A DNA stretch of 64,000 nt from Intestinibacillus massiliensis. Its GTDB lineage: Bacteria; Bacillota; Clostridia; Oscillospirales; Butyricicoccaceae. Position numbers and translations under genes: made by a program. Below, piece by piece: positions 11,878-18,903 of this stretch (positions are counted from its first letter, which is position 1; every line of letters begins with the position of its first letter). The stretch lies in assembly GCA_029267335.1 (NCBI GenBank), contig JAJUJC010000001.1:434001-498000 (forward strand). Reading direction: 5' to 3'. The notes under the pieces are model-generated. The model did no database searches, had not been told where the DNA came from, and saw only the letters and a program-made list of their open reading frames with translations.

Positions 11878-11966
11878 GGAGCGGTATCGAAGTGGTCATA
11901 ACGGGACTGACTCGAAATCAGTTGAGCCTCACGGCTCCGTGGGTTCGAATCCCACCCGCTCCGCCA
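11878..11966 (+). tRNA. tRNA-Ser (anticodon CGA), CCA encoded
   Basis: Acceptor GGAGCGG pairs with CCGCTCC; anticodon stem ACTGA/TCAGT encloses loop CTCGAAA, giving anticodon CGA (codon UCG). The long variable arm (TGAGCC/GGCTCC) and T-arm GTGGG-TTCGAAT-CCCAC are intact. The discriminator G and CCA end at 11966. The ICE integrase gene begins its 3' end 176 bp downstream and points at the tRNA, the usual layout for tRNA-targeted integration. Confidence 0.93.
11942..11966. other. Probable attL (ICE left end in tRNA-Ser 3' end)
   Basis: Inferred from the integrase position. Tyrosine integrases of this type recombine in the T-arm/3' end of tRNA genes, and the coding capacity changes to ICE genes just downstream. 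TTCTAC-containing repeats that could be integrase arm sites lie on both sides (11806-11830, 11845-11852; 12010-12025). The partner attR is not in the window. Confidence 0.45.
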
Positions 11967-12141: not shown

Positions 12142-13332
12142 TTACACAAGTTCGGTGGGTTTTGCGCCACTCGACTTCTCAAACATGGCGCTCGCAACCG
12201 TTCCGGTTTCCTGCTGGGCGGAGTAATCGAGGTGCGCGTAAATGTCCGCTGTGGTCGAAAACGTGCTGTGTCCAAGCCAAAGCTGAATTTGCTTCATGGG
12301 TACGCCGTTTGACAGCAGCAGGCTTGCGCAGGTGTGCCGGAGGTCGTGAAATCTCATCTTCTTGAATCCGTACTTGTCAATGAGCCACCGGAAATGCTCC
12401 GTCACATAGTTGGGGCGAAGAAGCTTGCCAGTCTGATCCACACAGATGTACTCAAGGTAGTCGGTGCAGTAGGATTTTTTGAAAAGTTTGCGGTACGTTT
12501 CCTGCTTTTCTTTCTCCGCCAGCAGCAGCTGTTCCACCACGGGAAGCAGCGGCAGGGTACGGAAGCTGGACTTGGTTTTCAGCACATCCTCCCCCACGAG
12601 AACGGATTTTCCGTCCTGCTCCACTTCGATGACCTTGTGGCGAACCGAGATGCTTTTGTCCTTAAAGTTGATGGCATCCCACTGCAGTCCTAACACCTCG
12701 CTTCGGCGCAGGCCGTAGTAGGCGGCAATCTTCACGCAGAGCTCCAGTGGGTCGCCTTGGATGGCTTCAAACAAGGTGAGCATCTCCTCGGCAGAGCAAA
12801 ATGCCGCCCGGTAGGTGTTCTTCTTCGGCCTGTCGATTTTGTCTGCCGGGTTGCGGAGAATGATCTCTTTCTTTACGGCATTTTGCAGCGCCCGCCGCAG
12901 AATTGCGTGGTAGTGGATGACCGTGTTGGTTTTACAGCCGTCATCCAATATCAGCTGGTAGAAGTTCTGAATTTGCTGTGGCGACACATCACCGAGGGAT
13001 ACCTTGAGCGCACGGAAGTGCCGGTCGATGCGGTTGTTGACCATGTTGCTATAGCTCTGGTAGGTGGCGGTGGCGATGGTGGGCTTGATCATTTTCAGCC
13101 ACGCCTGCATATAGTCTACAAAGGCTACATCGGCCTCCGTCCGGTTCGATTCAATGGTTTCCAATTCCTCATATTCATTGATGAGGCGAGCCAGCTCCGC
13201 TTCTGCTTTTCGCTTATTGCCCCGCACCGGTAAACCGGTGGCAATCCATTTGGGTTTTCGTTTTCCGTCAACCTTGAGGTTGAGCATTGCATAGTATTTA
13301 TCGTTTTTAATTTGCAGGCAGCCTGTTATCAT
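12142..13332 (-). CDS. int: ICE tyrosine integrase
   Basis: 396 residues. It has an N-terminal arm-binding part, a SAM-like core-binding region (about 65-165) and a C-terminal catalytic domain with R209 (YGLRRSE), H329 and R332 (HDLRHTCAS), H355 (LGHS) and nucleophile Y365. ATG 13332 follows AGGAGG with 6-nt spacing; a longer reading frame start at 13359 has none. It should integrate and excise the ICE at the nearby tRNA-Ser. The gene's 3' end faces the tRNA. Confidence 0.92.
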   Translation of the reverse strand: MITGCLQIKNDKYYAMLNLKVDGKRKPKWIATGLPVRGNKRKAEAELARLINEYEELETIESNRTEADVAFVDYMQAWLKMIKPTIATATYQSYSNMVNNRIDRHFRALKVSLGDVSPQQIQNFYQLILDDGCKTNTVIHYHAILRRALQNAVKKEIILRNPADKIDRPKKNTYRAAFCSAEEMLTLFEAIQGDPLELCVKIAAYYGLRRSEVLGLQWDAINFKDKSISVRHKVIEVEQDGKSVLVGEDVLKTKSSFRTLPLLPVVEQLLLAEKEKQETYRKLFKKSYCTDYLEYICVDQTGKLLRPNYVTEHFRWLIDKYGFKKMRFHDLRHTCASLLLSNGVPMKQIQLWLGHSTFSTTADIYAHLDYSAQQETGTVASAMFEKSSGAKPTELV

Positions 13333-13473
13333 AATAATCCTCCTTTGAAACAACAGCAAATTTGCCTACCATTGACGACACCACAGTACCACACTTTTTG
13401 AGACATAGCTATGGGTTCCGGCAGAGTTTCTCCACTTTATTTGCACTTTTTCTAAGTCGTGTCGTTCAGGTGG

Positions 13474-15695: not shown

Positions 15696-16586
15696 TTAAA
15701 CTATGTAGCAGCTTTTACCATGGGCCTTTGCTTGGTAAAGTCGCTGATCTGCCAGTTCGATCAGGTCGTTCATTTGTGGAGCGTCCAGTTCATTAGAAAA
15801 TGCACCGCCGATGCTCAAGGACAGATGAATGTTTTTGGTTTCCGCAAACAAAAACTCACGCGCCCGATCCACAAAAAGCTGCAATCGGTCAATAAAGATA
15901 TGGCGCTCTATGTTGCGAAATAGCACAATAAACTCATCTCCACCAAACCGAACCACAACGTCCCCTCGCCGGGAGCTGATGTTGCTTTGCAGCAAGTTTG
16001 CTACGGCCATAATTGCCTGGTCCCCCATGAGGTGGCCAAATTGGTCGTTGACAGGCTTCAAGTTATCAATATCGATGATTGCCAGTCCCAAATTTGCATC
16101 TTCAGCGATTGCCTGCTTGAGCAGAAACGTCCCCTTCTCATTAAGGTATCTTCGGTTGTATACATGCGTCAACTCATCCGTGTAGATATTTTGGTTGTAT
16201 TTTGTGATGCGCTCCACAAAATCATTGACCCCATAGGCATTTAAAAAAGTGCCATTTTGAATTTTAGTAATGAGTTCTAGTACATAATCCACTCCGTCCA
16301 CATGAATGAATTTGGCCAGTACATGATATATTTCGTGGTCCACAAATTCAAACTTTGTGTAGCGCGTCTTATCCACCAGCGCATCTCGGCACACACAGCT
16401 GATACAATTTTCGTCAGATTGCGAAAGAGTACAGCATTTATGGAGCCCCTCCATTGTCTGTTGAGCGCTCAAAGGCAATGGATATTCCCGCTTGCCAACC
16501 GGATCAATCACCCTGACAAGGTCAAAGGTCCCTCGTAGCACCGCAACCTCCCGAAGCAATTCTTCTCTGCTGTATGCTGTCTTCAT
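15696..16586 (-). CDS. GGDEF diguanylate cyclase with Cys-rich N-terminal domain
   Basis: 296 residues. The C-terminal half is a GGDEF domain with intact GGDEF (215-219) and an inhibitory-site RxxD (206-209) five residues upstream, so it should make c-di-GMP and be product-inhibited. The N-terminal 110 residues contain a cysteine cluster (C51, C52, C61, C64, C66), suggesting a metal or redox sensor. ATG 16586 is preceded by AAGGGA. No promoter is seen directly upstream; a 45-bp dyad and a recombinase gene lie there instead. Such genes are unusual ICE cargo. Confidence 0.88.
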   Translation of the reverse strand: MKTAYSREELLREVAVLRGTFDLVRVIDPVGKREYPLPLSAQQTMEGLHKCCTLSQSDENCISCVCRDALVDKTRYTKFEFVDHEIYHVLAKFIHVDGVDYVLELITKIQNGTFLNAYGVNDFVERITKYNQNIYTDELTHVYNRRYLNEKGTFLLKQAIAEDANLGLAIIDIDNLKPVNDQFGHLMGDQAIMAVANLLQSNISSRRGDVVVRFGGDEFIVLFRNIERHIFIDRLQLFVDRAREFLFAETKNIHLSLSIGGAFSNELDAPQMNDLIELADQRLYQAKAHGKSCYIV

Positions 16587-16650
16587 AAAATCCCTTCTTT
16601 CCAATCCGTACGCAGTATATTTCTGACTTTTGAGCACATCCTAATAACAT

Positions 16651-16695
16651 AGACAGGACATTCGTAAAGGTTTCACCTTTGCGAATGTCCTGTCT
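16651..16695. repeat. Dyad and left inverted repeat of a candidate invertible segment
   Basis: A 45-bp near-perfect dyad (AGACAGGACATTCG arms at 16651-16664 and 16682-16695). Its core at 16661-16680, TTCGTAAAGGTTTCACCTTT, recurs exactly in reverse complement at 18097-18116. The core itself has the shape of a tyrosine-recombinase site: arms TTCGTAAAGGT and ACCTTTGCGAA around a short asymmetric spacer. Confidence 0.75.
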
Positions 16696-16737
16696 AAATC
16701 GCTTGTAGCACAAGGCTTCAATCCCAGTTGCTGACCA

Positions 16738-17907
16738 TTAGTTTGACGGGCAATCCAAGCAAAGCATTTCCAGTTTTTTAATTTGCTCCCGTTTGTGTTG
16801 AGGGAGCGAGTGTACATATTTTTTTAGTGTAACGGAGACATCTGCATGTCCTAAAATTTCACTTAACGTTTTCACATCCATTCCGACCTCTACAGCCCTT
16901 GTTGCAAAGGTGTGCCGCAATGTATGAAAGCTTACTTTGGGCAGATTTAAGCGGAGTCGCAAATGCGCCAGATAATTTTGAATGCTGCGGGGGTCGACAT
17001 ATTGATTTTCACGCCCCGGGATGACATAAGGAAAATCCCTTGCGCTCAACTTGTATTCTGACAAGTAAGCGACCAGTTTCCCTGGAAGGGGAATGTCCCG
17101 CACGGAGTACTTGCTTTTGGGTGTGCCGATAGACACCTTCGTCTTGCTGTTCCCGTTGGGCATGGGTAACTTAATGCGCTGCAAATTTTCGGTAACATGA
17201 AGAATTTCATTTATTAAATCCACATTCTCCCACCGCAACGCACAAACTTCGCCAAGCCGCATTCCCGTATACAGTGCAATCACGATAGCAATCGATAATC
17301 GTTCTTCCGCAAAAAGAACATGCCGCTCCAATACAGACTGCTCTCTCCGCGACAAAACTTGCACCCGAAGAGGGCCGCTCTGTTTGTCCACAAGCTTGAT
17401 GTTTGCACATGGGTTATGCGCCAGAATCCCATTGCTGACCGCCTGTGCGAATGCCGCAGATAAAATGGTGCGTAGATCCTTCACGGTCTTGACTGCGAGC
17501 CCACCTTTCCCGTCCAGCCGCCCCGATTCTCTTTTTTCATTAAAGTAAAGCTGAAGTTCATAGGTGCTTAACTGTCCAAGCTTACGATCTCCTAACTGTG
17601 AGAGCACATGGGTTTGAATACGATAATAATAATTTGCATAGGTAGAGTCCTTCACGGAAAAACGCACATATTGGCTCAGCCATAATGTGAGCCACTCCTG
17701 TACGGTATATCCATTGGGAGCCCATCGGGGCGGCGGAATCAGCGCAAGCTCCCGCCTGGCTTGCGTCAGCTTTTGTTTGACCTCTGTATAGGTCTTTGCG
17801 TAAACGGAACAATATTTTCTCTTTTGCTCCGGCTGGCTCCAAACTGCATATCGTCCCTCCCAGCGCCCATCCGAACGTTTGTAAATATTTTCGCCTCGTT
17901 TCGGCAT
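16738..17907 (-). CDS. Second tyrosine recombinase/integrase
   Basis: 389 residues with AP2-like arm-binding N-terminus, core-binding domain (about 70-165) and catalytic residues R217 (GMRLGE), H328 and R331 (HTLRHTFAT), H354 (LGHA) and Y364. ATG 17907 has AGGAGG just upstream. It is only distantly similar to the ICE integrase at 12.1 kb. It lies wholly between two inverted repeats (16661-16680, 18097-18116), so it may be an inversion recombinase that flips its own gene, or the integrase of a smaller nested element. The flanking genes are a diguanylate cyclase and a Crp/Fnr regulator. Confidence 0.9.
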   Translation of the reverse strand: MPKRGENIYKRSDGRWEGRYAVWSQPEQKRKYCSVYAKTYTEVKQKLTQARRELALIPPPRWAPNGYTVQEWLTLWLSQYVRFSVKDSTYANYYYRIQTHVLSQLGDRKLGQLSTYELQLYFNEKRESGRLDGKGGLAVKTVKDLRTILSAAFAQAVSNGILAHNPCANIKLVDKQSGPLRVQVLSRREQSVLERHVLFAEERLSIAIVIALYTGMRLGEVCALRWENVDLINEILHVTENLQRIKLPMPNGNSKTKVSIGTPKSKYSVRDIPLPGKLVAYLSEYKLSARDFPYVIPGRENQYVDPRSIQNYLAHLRLRLNLPKVSFHTLRHTFATRAVEVGMDVKTLSEILGHADVSVTLKKYVHSLPQHKREQIKKLEMLCLDCPSN

Positions 17908-18015
17908 TCTTTTTCCTCCTTGCGATGACCAGATTTTAGACCAGTGATAGCCGAACTGGGACTACCGATTTATAGCAAAACAGCAAAGATGCCAATGGAT
18001 TACACTGCCAAAGCG

Positions 18016-18044
18016 TTGACTTCCCGACATAACAATGATAAACT
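18016..18044 (+). promoter_or_regulatory. Strong promoter inside the candidate invertible segment
   Basis: TTGACT (18016-18021), a 17-bp spacer and TAAACT (18039-18044). It points right, out through the right repeat toward the Crp/Fnr gene. If the segment inverted, it would point left at the diguanylate cyclase gene. The 312-bp gap 17908-18219 holds this promoter, the repeat and a terminator but no gene. Confidence 0.6.
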
Positions 18045-18091
18045 GAAAAAAGATGGCGACCTTAAATGACTAAAAATGTATTGTTTTTCGG

Positions 18092-18116
18092 TTCATAAAG
18101 GTGAAACCTTTACGAA
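18092..18116. repeat. Right inverted repeat of the candidate invertible segment
   Basis: AAAGGTGAAACCTTTACGAA at 18097-18116 is the exact reverse complement of 16661-16680 (20/20). Over the full 25-bp dyad the inverted alignment matches 23/25 including the spacer, whereas the direct alignment matches 20/25 and loses the spacer. Confidence 0.75.
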
Positions 18117-18132
18117 AATAATGGATTAACTT

Positions 18133-18164
18133 GGCCAAGGCAGGAATGCCTTGGCCCTTTTTTT
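18133..18164 (+). terminator. Terminator between the internal promoter and the Crp/Fnr gene
   Basis: GGCCAAGGCA and TGCCTTGGCC form a perfect 10-bp stem with loop GGAA, followed by a T tract. It could end a roughly 110-nt leader RNA or act as an attenuator for the regulator gene. Confidence 0.8.
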
Positions 18165-18219
18165 ATGTTCAATTTAACATAGACTGGAAAGGAGGTACGT
18201 TGCGCGGGCAACGCTACAT

Positions 18220-18903
18220 ATGCGAGAACTATCTGAAATCCTTTTGCAAACACCACTTTTTTATGGGATTACACCGCAAGAACTAGATTGTCTTTTGCAA
18301 TGCTTAAATGCCAAGCATCAAACCTACGAAAAGGGGCAGATGCTTCTTTGGGAGGGTGATACTGTTCAAGAGCTCGGTATCATTTTGGAGGGAACAGGTC
18401 GAGCATTTAAAACCGATGTTCACGGCAGAGTGTTGACTGTCACTTTATTGGAAACCGGTAGCGTAATTTCTATTCTATTAGCAGCCGGTAGAAATTTGAA
18501 AAGTCCTGTGTCCATTCAAGCAACAGATTCGTTGCGGGTGTTATTTATGTCTTTTGATAAAATCATAGGGCAATGCAGCGAACAATGCTTAAAGCACAAT
18601 TTGCTGCTTCGCAATTATTTAAGTTTAATGGCAGAGCGTGCGCTGGATTTATATGATCGAACTGCCTGCCTAACAAAGCCGTCAGTACGCGAAAAAATCT
18701 TAGCGTACCTAAGTCGTATGGCACAAATACAGGAAAGTAAAACCTTTAATATTCCAATGGATCGCGTAGGTATGGCCGAATATCTGAACGTGGAACGCAG
18801 TGCGCTTTCACGTGAATTATCTGCTATGAAAAAAGAAGGTCTGTTGGATTACTATAAAAACAGCTTTAGCTTGCATTACTTTGGAAAAGAAAACAAGAAC
18901 TGA
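18220..18903 (+). CDS. Crp/Fnr-family transcription regulator
   Basis: 227 residues: N-terminal cyclic-nucleotide-binding-like beta-roll (about 1-130, with FYGITPQELDCLL), dimer helix and C-terminal winged HTH (MDRVGMAEYLNVERSALSRE). No CxxC cluster for Fnr-type iron-sulfur binding is seen. The ribosome site GGAAAGGAGG (18187-18195) is unusually far from the ATG, but a GTTGC/GCAAC hairpin lies between and would shorten the effective distance to about 10 nt. It is followed by an XRE regulator. Confidence 0.88.
   Translation: MRELSEILLQTPLFYGITPQELDCLLQCLNAKHQTYEKGQMLLWEGDTVQELGIILEGTGRAFKTDVHGRVLTVTLLETGSVISILLAAGRNLKSPVSIQATDSLRVLFMSFDKIIGQCSEQCLKHNLLLRNYLSLMAERALDLYDRTACLTKPSVREKILAYLSRMAQIQESKTFNIPMDRVGMAEYLNVERSALSRELSAMKKEGLLDYYKNSFSLHYFGKENKN

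Follow-up and report, generated by a model that had tools for sequence, protein, structure and literature searches.

Invertible promoters, recombinases encoded inside invertible segments and phase-variable enzymes of cyclic di-GMP (c-di-GMP) turnover are already known. The closest described systems, as far as the available parts of the respective papers go, include a Clostridia-dominated inverton group (group 139) tied to tyrosine recombinase invertase group 35 (PMC11892184), and the fimbrial switch of Providencia stuartii, where a putative 844-bp segment encloses a recombinase open reading frame (ORF), in a paper that mentions Hin, too, and describes RecV-dependent switches (PMC5903667). Papers on the SXT/R391 integrative and conjugative elements (ICEs), in the portions available, mention diguanylate cyclases. 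Here we describe a locus in a stretch of 64,000 nt from Intestinibacillus massiliensis (contig JAJUJC010000001.1, positions 434,001 to 498,000; hereafter the window), where a 1,456-bp candidate invertible segment (16661-18116) with a tyrosine recombinase gene (int) lies between the genes for a GGDEF diguanylate cyclase and a Crp/Fnr-family regulator (crp). We favour the reading, with a probability of about 0.83, that this segment is a self-contained invertible promoter cassette, which flips with int included and keeps the GGDEF gene OFF in the present orientation and ON when inverted. No description of this family of int cassettes was found in the main texts of the open-access papers searched, and the available part of PMC10939037 contained nothing on this enzyme.

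Core sites and predicted promoter of the candidate cassette

The core sites, the recombinase gene and the promoter-like and terminator-like sequences of the locus (Table 1), as well as their conservation across a family, can be read from the DNA itself. The segment is bounded by a perfect 20-bp inverted repeat (16661-16680 and 18097-18116), which reaches 25 bp with 23/25 identities, against 20/25 for the same 25-mers read in direct orientation. Each copy is a near-palindrome of 9-bp arms around a 7-bp spacer, and the two spacers match at 7/7 positions when inverted and at 4/7 in direct orientation. The repeat, its recombinase-core symmetry and its asymmetric spacer, shared in inverted orientation, had been described in an earlier note made from the letters of this DNA alone, and all were recovered here. 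No match to the repeat pattern was obtained in 100 shuffled windows; exactly two core sites were found across the window at ≤5 mismatches, and these are the only two places in the 2.2-Mb genome at ≤3 mismatches. The other matches to AAAGGTNNNACCTTT at two mismatches (six in the window, 2.6 expected) carry no information. Beyond both ends of the cassette there is a 14-bp direct repeat (TAACATAGACAGGA/TAACATAGACTGGA, 13/14 identical; 16645-16658 and 18175-18188), which may be due to chance.

Crp/Fnr proteins bind palindromes, and each of the two palindromes precedes an outward-pointing gene, so that they could be read as operators of the Crp/Fnr protein before its own gene and before the GGDEF gene, with nothing inverting. 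However, the window dyad is odd-centred, which Crp/Fnr sites are not, the genome holds only two copies, and family loci (see below) in which no Crp gene was seen alongside have the same type of site on either side of the recombinase. This reading is barely credible, and was rejected on these three grounds.

The promoter TTGACT-17-TAAACT noted earlier is the sole + strand promoter site scoring above 10 within 16587-18219. Inverted in silico it comes to lie at 16733-16761 on the - strand, reading toward the GGDEF gene, as had been anticipated. The earlier note had also seen no promoter belonging to the GGDEF gene itself, and indeed no - strand promoter scoring above 5 was found between the left repeat and that gene (16587-16660), where a 5.2-scoring candidate overlaps the left site; a 10.6-scoring site within the gene is considered further on. 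With flanking inverted repeats and a predicted outward promoter, the segment has the sequence make-up of an invertible promoter, and comparison with related loci (see below) makes inversion here likely.

Table 1. Features of the candidate cassette and its surroundings (window coordinates)
Feature	Position	Strand	Description	Basis or remark
Left core recombination site (putative)	16661-16685	+	arm TTCGTAAAG, 7-bp spacer GTTTCAC, arm CTTTGCGAA	
Right core recombination site (putative)	18092-18116	-	inverse of TTCGTAAAG-GTTTCAC-CTTTATGAA	same spacer, opposite strand
Tyrosine recombinase (int), likely invertase	16738-17907	-	389 aa, inside segment	Phage_integrase and Phage_int_SAM_3 domains
3′ arm-type repeat pair (probable)	16732-16749	-	CCGTCAAACTAATGGTCA	overlaps int stop codon; score 11.8
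5′ arm-type repeat pair (probable)	17926-17943	-	TGGTCTAAAATCTGGTCA	directly upstream of int start; score 10.9
Outward promoter (predicted)	18016-18044	+	TTGACT-17-TAAACT, extended -10 (TG before -10)	promoter scoring
Intrinsic terminator (predicted)	18133-18164	+	10-bp stem and seven T, outside segment	18133-18156 at -20.3 kcal/mol; between right site and crp
Palindrome	16650-16696	-	47 bp, spanning left site, no T run	folding of present and inverted sequence
GGDEF diguanylate cyclase, likely target	15696-16586	-	296 aa	RxxD and GGDEF motifs intact
Crp/Fnr-family regulator (crp)	18220-18903	+	227 aa, downstream of terminator	domain match
ICE's own integrase	12142-13359	-		adjoins tRNA-Ser 11878-11966

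The recombinase and its relatives

The tyrosine recombinase gene lies inside the segment, as the earlier note had it, and residues R217, H328, R331, H354 and Y364 of its product, presumably the catalytic ones, are invariant in an alignment of 15 sequences, which also contains a conserved N-terminal GENIYKRKDGRWEGRY region. The SAM-like domain starts at residue 68 and is preceded by an extra N-terminal region. The nearest solved structures are 6en0, 6emy and 6emz, annotated as 'Int protein', which we take to be the Int of Tn1549. Among the matches listed, the best are 41-42% identical to the window int, and the next best match in the 2.2-Mb genome has 26% identity; genome contigs scanned with the window int gave five loci at 25-27% identity. 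Viral contigs scanned with the window int gave no relative, and the repeat pattern was matched in three viral contigs. A blastn comparison of the window locus with plasmids gave no match; a Phocaeicola plasmid match (H21) was listed.

In an unselected first comparison, 12 of 26 loci (window included) had an exact inverted match of at least 19 bp around int, and 11 of the 12 carry a site of the window type, differing in sequence, the exception being L022 (loci are given as L numbers). A profile was built from 15 repeat-bearing int rows, all of them among the 27 rows (window included) with a profile score >350, which were taken as the high-scoring class; a repeat was called at a score of at least 17 within 450 bp of int. 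Among 119 int rows with enough flank, 110 were kept after dropping six near-identical ones (L077, L081, L090, L095, L118, L163) and three low-scoring rows that come from the same genome as the window (L002, L003 and the ICE integrase itself), and some near-identical rows remain among the 83 low-scoring ones (L109/L111). The family is at least as large as the matches listed here, and its rows are related, so that the counts are not independent. Inverted repeats flank int in 23 of the 27 rows above 350 and in 2 of the 83 below, a count subject to own-row bias since the profile derives from repeat-bearing rows. With the 15 profile rows excluded, 8 of 12 high-scoring rows have the repeats, and since these 12 independent rows differ sharply from the 83, the odds of our reading are unchanged by the bias. 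Direct repeats reaching the same score were found in 3/27 high-scoring and 1/83 lower rows. The earlier note considered a switch of this kind inside an ICE, with the recombinase within the invertible segment, unusual; these counts do not support that view, and the window locus belongs to a widespread family of predicted self-inverting promoter cassettes.

A tree of 79 rows shows the repeat-bearing members clustered (8 changes, versus a mean of 20.9 in shuffles, with 0/500 as low), though not as one clade. They were found in 15 genomes, the window's included, and also on plasmids of Enterococcus raffinosus, E. gilvus, E. faecalis, Vescimonas fastidiosa and Ruminococcus albus. Loci found later (e.g. 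L201, L203-L207) stand outside the 27; L207 has a 26-bp inverted repeat, and L206 is a copy of L070. The two repeat-bearing low scorers are L072, with an int cut short, and L022, with a long repeat. L072 (9753-10953, G044) has perfect 26-bp repeats and an int cut to 291 aa beside polysaccharide-type genes, and is perhaps a decaying or locked switch, and L022 (G028) combines a low-scoring int with a long inverted repeat (score 84) unlike the family sites. L017, L021, L024 and L113 contain a tandem pair of int genes, which presumably resembles recombinase-in-trio elements.

Inversion by a tyrosine recombinase requires spacers that are identical when inverted, and excision requires direct identity. 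In the 24 loci that could be aligned as 9-bp arm, 7-bp spacer and 9-bp arm, the inverted spacers are identical in all 24, a result that is partly circular as the pairs were selected by best inverted match, and in direct orientation the spacers match at 0-4 of 7 positions. The contrast between spacers and arms is stronger evidence than spacer identity alone: the 16 TTC-type loci have 16 distinct spacers, with 0/112 spacer mismatches and 20/288 arm mismatches, a count that omits L086, L080, L082, L078, L084, L075, L174 and L175 for a non-TTC site or doubtful register. All 19 loci scanned have, within the stretch available for each, exactly two sites at ≤5 mismatches, located on opposite strands.

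Outward promoters and arm-type repeats in the family

Promoters were scored with a hand-written matrix, and arm half-sites with weights set by eye from the same loci, with controls scored identically; the promoter controls were 44 ints without repeats and with an aligned N-terminus. An outward promoter of the sigma-A-like type (score ≥12) is predicted between the int 5′ end and the repeat in 19/23 family loci versus 1/44 controls, and an inward one at that place in 1/23 versus 3/44. The outward promoter beats at least 95% of shuffles in 20/24 loci.

Inside both cassette ends, paired CCGTCA-like hexamers were found 12-13 bp apart on the int-sense strand. Pairs scoring at least 10 are present at the 5′ end in 20/24 loci and in none of 81 controls, and at the 3′ end in 15/24 loci and 3/81 controls, and no pair was found on the opposite strand at either end in the 24 loci. 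A stricter pattern gave 18/24 (5′) and 12/24 (3′), with 0 and 3 of the 81 controls; the 5′ pair of the window (TGGTCT/TGGTCA) fails it. The 3′ pair is 41-51 bp from the core in its 15 loci, and in its 20 loci the end of the 5′ pair is separated from the int start by 15-72 bp. These hexamer pairs are probably arm-type sites for the N-terminal region of the recombinase. As a strong inward int promoter is rare and the 5′ pair is close to the int start, int may be autorepressed or transcribed from outside.

The arm-type repeats inside both ends would also suit a small mobile element, a stripped relative of Tn916/Tn1549 inserted between the GGDEF gene and crp, with the repeats as transposon ends, which moves and does not flip in place. 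The 'Int protein' structures nearest to the window int and the many different contexts of the cassettes fit this too, and the orientations of L070 and L089 (see below) could be separate insertions. However, all 24 loci show inverted spacer identity, not the direct identity that excision needs, and the outer arms resemble one another at the two ends, whereas in a Tn916-like element target DNA would be expected there. A transposon has no need of a strong outward promoter, and the distant next best int in the genome also argues against a mobile element. We consider such an element very unlikely, and the ends of the window segment do not look like Tn916/Tn1549-like ends, which recombine directly to excise a circle.

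Predicted ON/OFF control of the GGDEF gene

In the present orientation the promoter faces a terminator and then crp, in agreement with the earlier note; the terminator starts 16 bp beyond the right site, on the strand now read by the promoter. That note spoke of a switch choosing between the GGDEF and crp genes, of which the first half stands, as the segment appears built to invert and face the GGDEF gene, while the choice is doubtful because the terminator precedes crp on the promoter's strand. The 47-bp palindrome at the left site is built from DNA on both sides of it and exists only in the current orientation: the corresponding hairpin has a predicted energy of -32.7 kcal/mol now versus -8.8 kcal/mol inverted in a fixed 65-nt stretch, and of -32.7 versus -13.6 kcal/mol as the best 60-nt window. 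A hairpin of -20 kcal/mol or below is predicted at the int 3′ end in 12/24 family loci. With no promoter above 5 between the left site and the GGDEF gene, a terminator before crp and an orientation-dependent hairpin, ON/OFF control of the diguanylate cyclase is the best reading, and the locus is more likely such a switch, OFF as assembled.

Control of crp is possible if the terminator leaks. A two-way switch would be a variant of the ON/OFF reading, with overlapping odds: in one orientation crp would be transcribed from the cassette promoter past a leaky or regulated terminator, and in the other the GGDEF gene would be. Both neighbouring genes do point away from the cassette, as do genes on both sides of the relatives L067, L069 and L070, and only weak promoter candidates (7.9 and 6.4) precede crp. 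We nevertheless regard two-way control as unlikely given the predicted stability, stem and T run of the terminator, for which no upstream + strand gene was seen that would need it besides the cassette promoter. A search of Rfam from the promoter to crp gave three matches at E ≤5, none at the gathering score (best SdsR_RyeB, 26.3 versus 38), so no RNA family reached the cut-off before crp, with antitermination not searched for.

The GGDEF protein keeps the RxxD-x5-GGDEF arrangement, and its N-terminal Cys51, Cys61 and Cys64 are invariant in eight aligned sequences. A second GGDEF gene (G000:C1:419812-420678, L059), located ~13 kb before the window start, encodes the same cysteine-bearing N-terminal domain and is 32% identical.

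From these features we infer the following course for the ON/OFF switch. The catalytic domain of the recombinase would bind the two 25-bp core sites and its N-terminal region the inner arm repeats, and strand exchange within the identical 7-bp spacers would turn the 1,456-bp segment, recombinase gene included. The single cassette promoter would point out across the int 5′-side end, so that in the present orientation it would run into the terminator before crp, while the long hairpin would separate int from the GGDEF gene. In the inverted state the promoter would read left, the long hairpin would be broken and the diguanylate cyclase gene would be transcribed. The likely outcome would be a population with two heritable states that differ in c-di-GMP.

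Neighbouring genes and cassette orientation in relatives

Relatives lie next to exopolysaccharide-type genes (Bac_transf; L069, L072), genes for an S-layer-homology protein (L075), a signal peptidase (L071), WxL proteins (L086) and a dockerin protein (L083), and accessory Sec genes (L078). L070 stands between an XRE-like gene and erm(B). XRE-like genes on both sides of L067 and a gene for an HNH-repeat protein at L074 depart from a surface theme. Among L070 (9274-11871), L077 and L206, the cassette lies ~450 bp from erm(B) in two genomes, and a faecal record labelled Bacteriophage sp. contains the same cassette and only the beginning of erm(B).

The XRE-gene flank is common to L070 and L089 (= L090), at 80-82% identity, and adjoins the int 5′ end in L070 and the int 3′ end in L089, with homology stopping inside the core site. 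Against this conserved flank, L070/L077 and L103 have one cassette orientation and L089 (= L090) the opposite one. The likely cause is an inversion between related elements; that the cassette was inserted independently is less likely. L103 had no match among plasmids. E. raffinosus Er676 keeps 5.3 kb of left flank, with no int and no match beyond, and therefore offers no clean empty site.

The locus could also be a once-active switch that is now locked, which overlaps the favoured reading as to origin. Decay of cassettes is suggested by the one core copy of L089/L090 and the shortened int of L072, and near-identical copies elsewhere share one orientation. At the window locus, however, the reading frame of int and its catalytic residues are preserved, as are the two core sites, the arm pairs at either end and the promoter, and we think a locked switch unlikely.

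Besides the own-row bias and the partial circularity of spacer identity given above, several observations weigh against the favoured reading. In the window, the -10 of the promoter is off-consensus, and a 10.6-scoring - strand site lies inside the GGDEF gene; the collections searched contained no close relative of the locus. In the family, the outward promoters of L076, L086, L082 and L174 fall short of the level of 95% of shuffles, and hairpin medians of -19.9 kcal/mol now and -16.8 kcal/mol flipped make orientation-dependence no clear family trait. Four of the 27 high-scoring ints lack repeats (L089, L091, L012 and one int of L085), and, among the loci found later, L205 has only a 13-bp inverted repeat and L201, L203 and L204 have none, with flanks that are short on one side. 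L089/L090 is one element in two contigs with a single core copy left, and so points to a past event or a separate insertion rather than to a working switch. Finally, the near-identical L070, L077 and L206 all share one orientation, as do E. raffinosus L079-L081 and the more diverged L078.

Host element and possible significance

The earlier note placed the promoter segment and its recombinase inside an ICE, and the domain content of the surroundings bears this out: an integrase next to tRNA-Ser, a MobL relaxase, a T4SS-DNA_transf coupling protein, a P-loop_TraG ATPase and TrbL_5, a set that covers integrase, relaxase, coupling and mating-pair functions. A right attachment site (attR) was not seen as an exact match to the last 14-40 tRNA bases within the window.

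We tentatively propose, at a little less than even odds, that a widespread class of autonomous phase-variation cassettes, each with int, an outward promoter, arm sites and a 7-bp spacer of its own, has been recruited repeatedly in Bacillota to surface, polysaccharide, resistance-linked and regulatory genes, with the private spacer of each acting as an address against cross-talk. Here an ICE would have captured a diguanylate cyclase and would set host c-di-GMP bistably, perhaps favouring attachment and its own transfer, and the locus would join phase variation, mobile elements and c-di-GMP. The private spacers suggest that the inversion systems work independently of one another. A sequence signature made up of the int family, inverted 25-bp sites that have private spacers, arm repeats and an outward promoter might allow self-inverting switches to be called from an assembly alone, and makes it testable how a Tn1549-like Int inverts instead of excising.

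Comparison with known systems

Ends of the Tn1549/Tn916 type give excision, whereas the core sites of the window are inverted. By sequence, the window recombinase shares its catalytic and core-binding domains with the Tn1549/Tn916-type Int proteins (6en0, 6emy, 6emz), its arm repeats being putative. RecV/FimB-type invertases are short and have no N-terminal arm-binding domain, unlike the 389-aa window enzyme with its SAM-like domain set behind an additional region; the likeness to RecV suggested in the earlier note is not supported. Nor does the enzyme have the resolvase catalytic domain of Hin/Gin, as it carries Phage_integrase. The pneumococcal SpnIII hsdS locus differs from the window locus in shuffling specificity genes, not a promoter.

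The following comparisons extend to the available parts of the papers cited. SpnIII hsdS resembles the window locus in that a site-specific recombinase is encoded within the inverting locus (PMC11868660). The Salmonella Hin segment likewise has its invertase inside (PMC5903667); Hin is a serine recombinase (PMC11868660), whereas the window encodes a tyrosine recombinase with putative arm-type repeats. The putative P. stuartii segment and that of the window locus both enclose a recombinase ORF, the former with 14-bp imperfect repeats at a fimbrial locus (PMC5903667). The gut invertons have in common with the window locus inverted repeats, a tyrosine recombinase encoded nearby and, in some groups, promoters, with surface genes nearby; the group 139 example given with coordinates is 257 bp long, too short for an enzyme gene, whereas the window int is inside a 1.45-kb segment (PMC11892184). 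The Clostridioides difficile pdcB switch is alike in that an invertible promoter governs c-di-GMP turnover, and differs in its length (174 bp) and its phosphodiesterase target, with no recombinase assigned and no ICE mentioned in the available text (PMC9286219). Invertible promoters of Bacteroidales ICEs, which control resistance genes, are alike in combining an invertible promoter and an invertase on an ICE; there the invertase adjoins the segment and does not lie inside it, and the switches have Bacteroidales promoters and other targets (PMC8748976).

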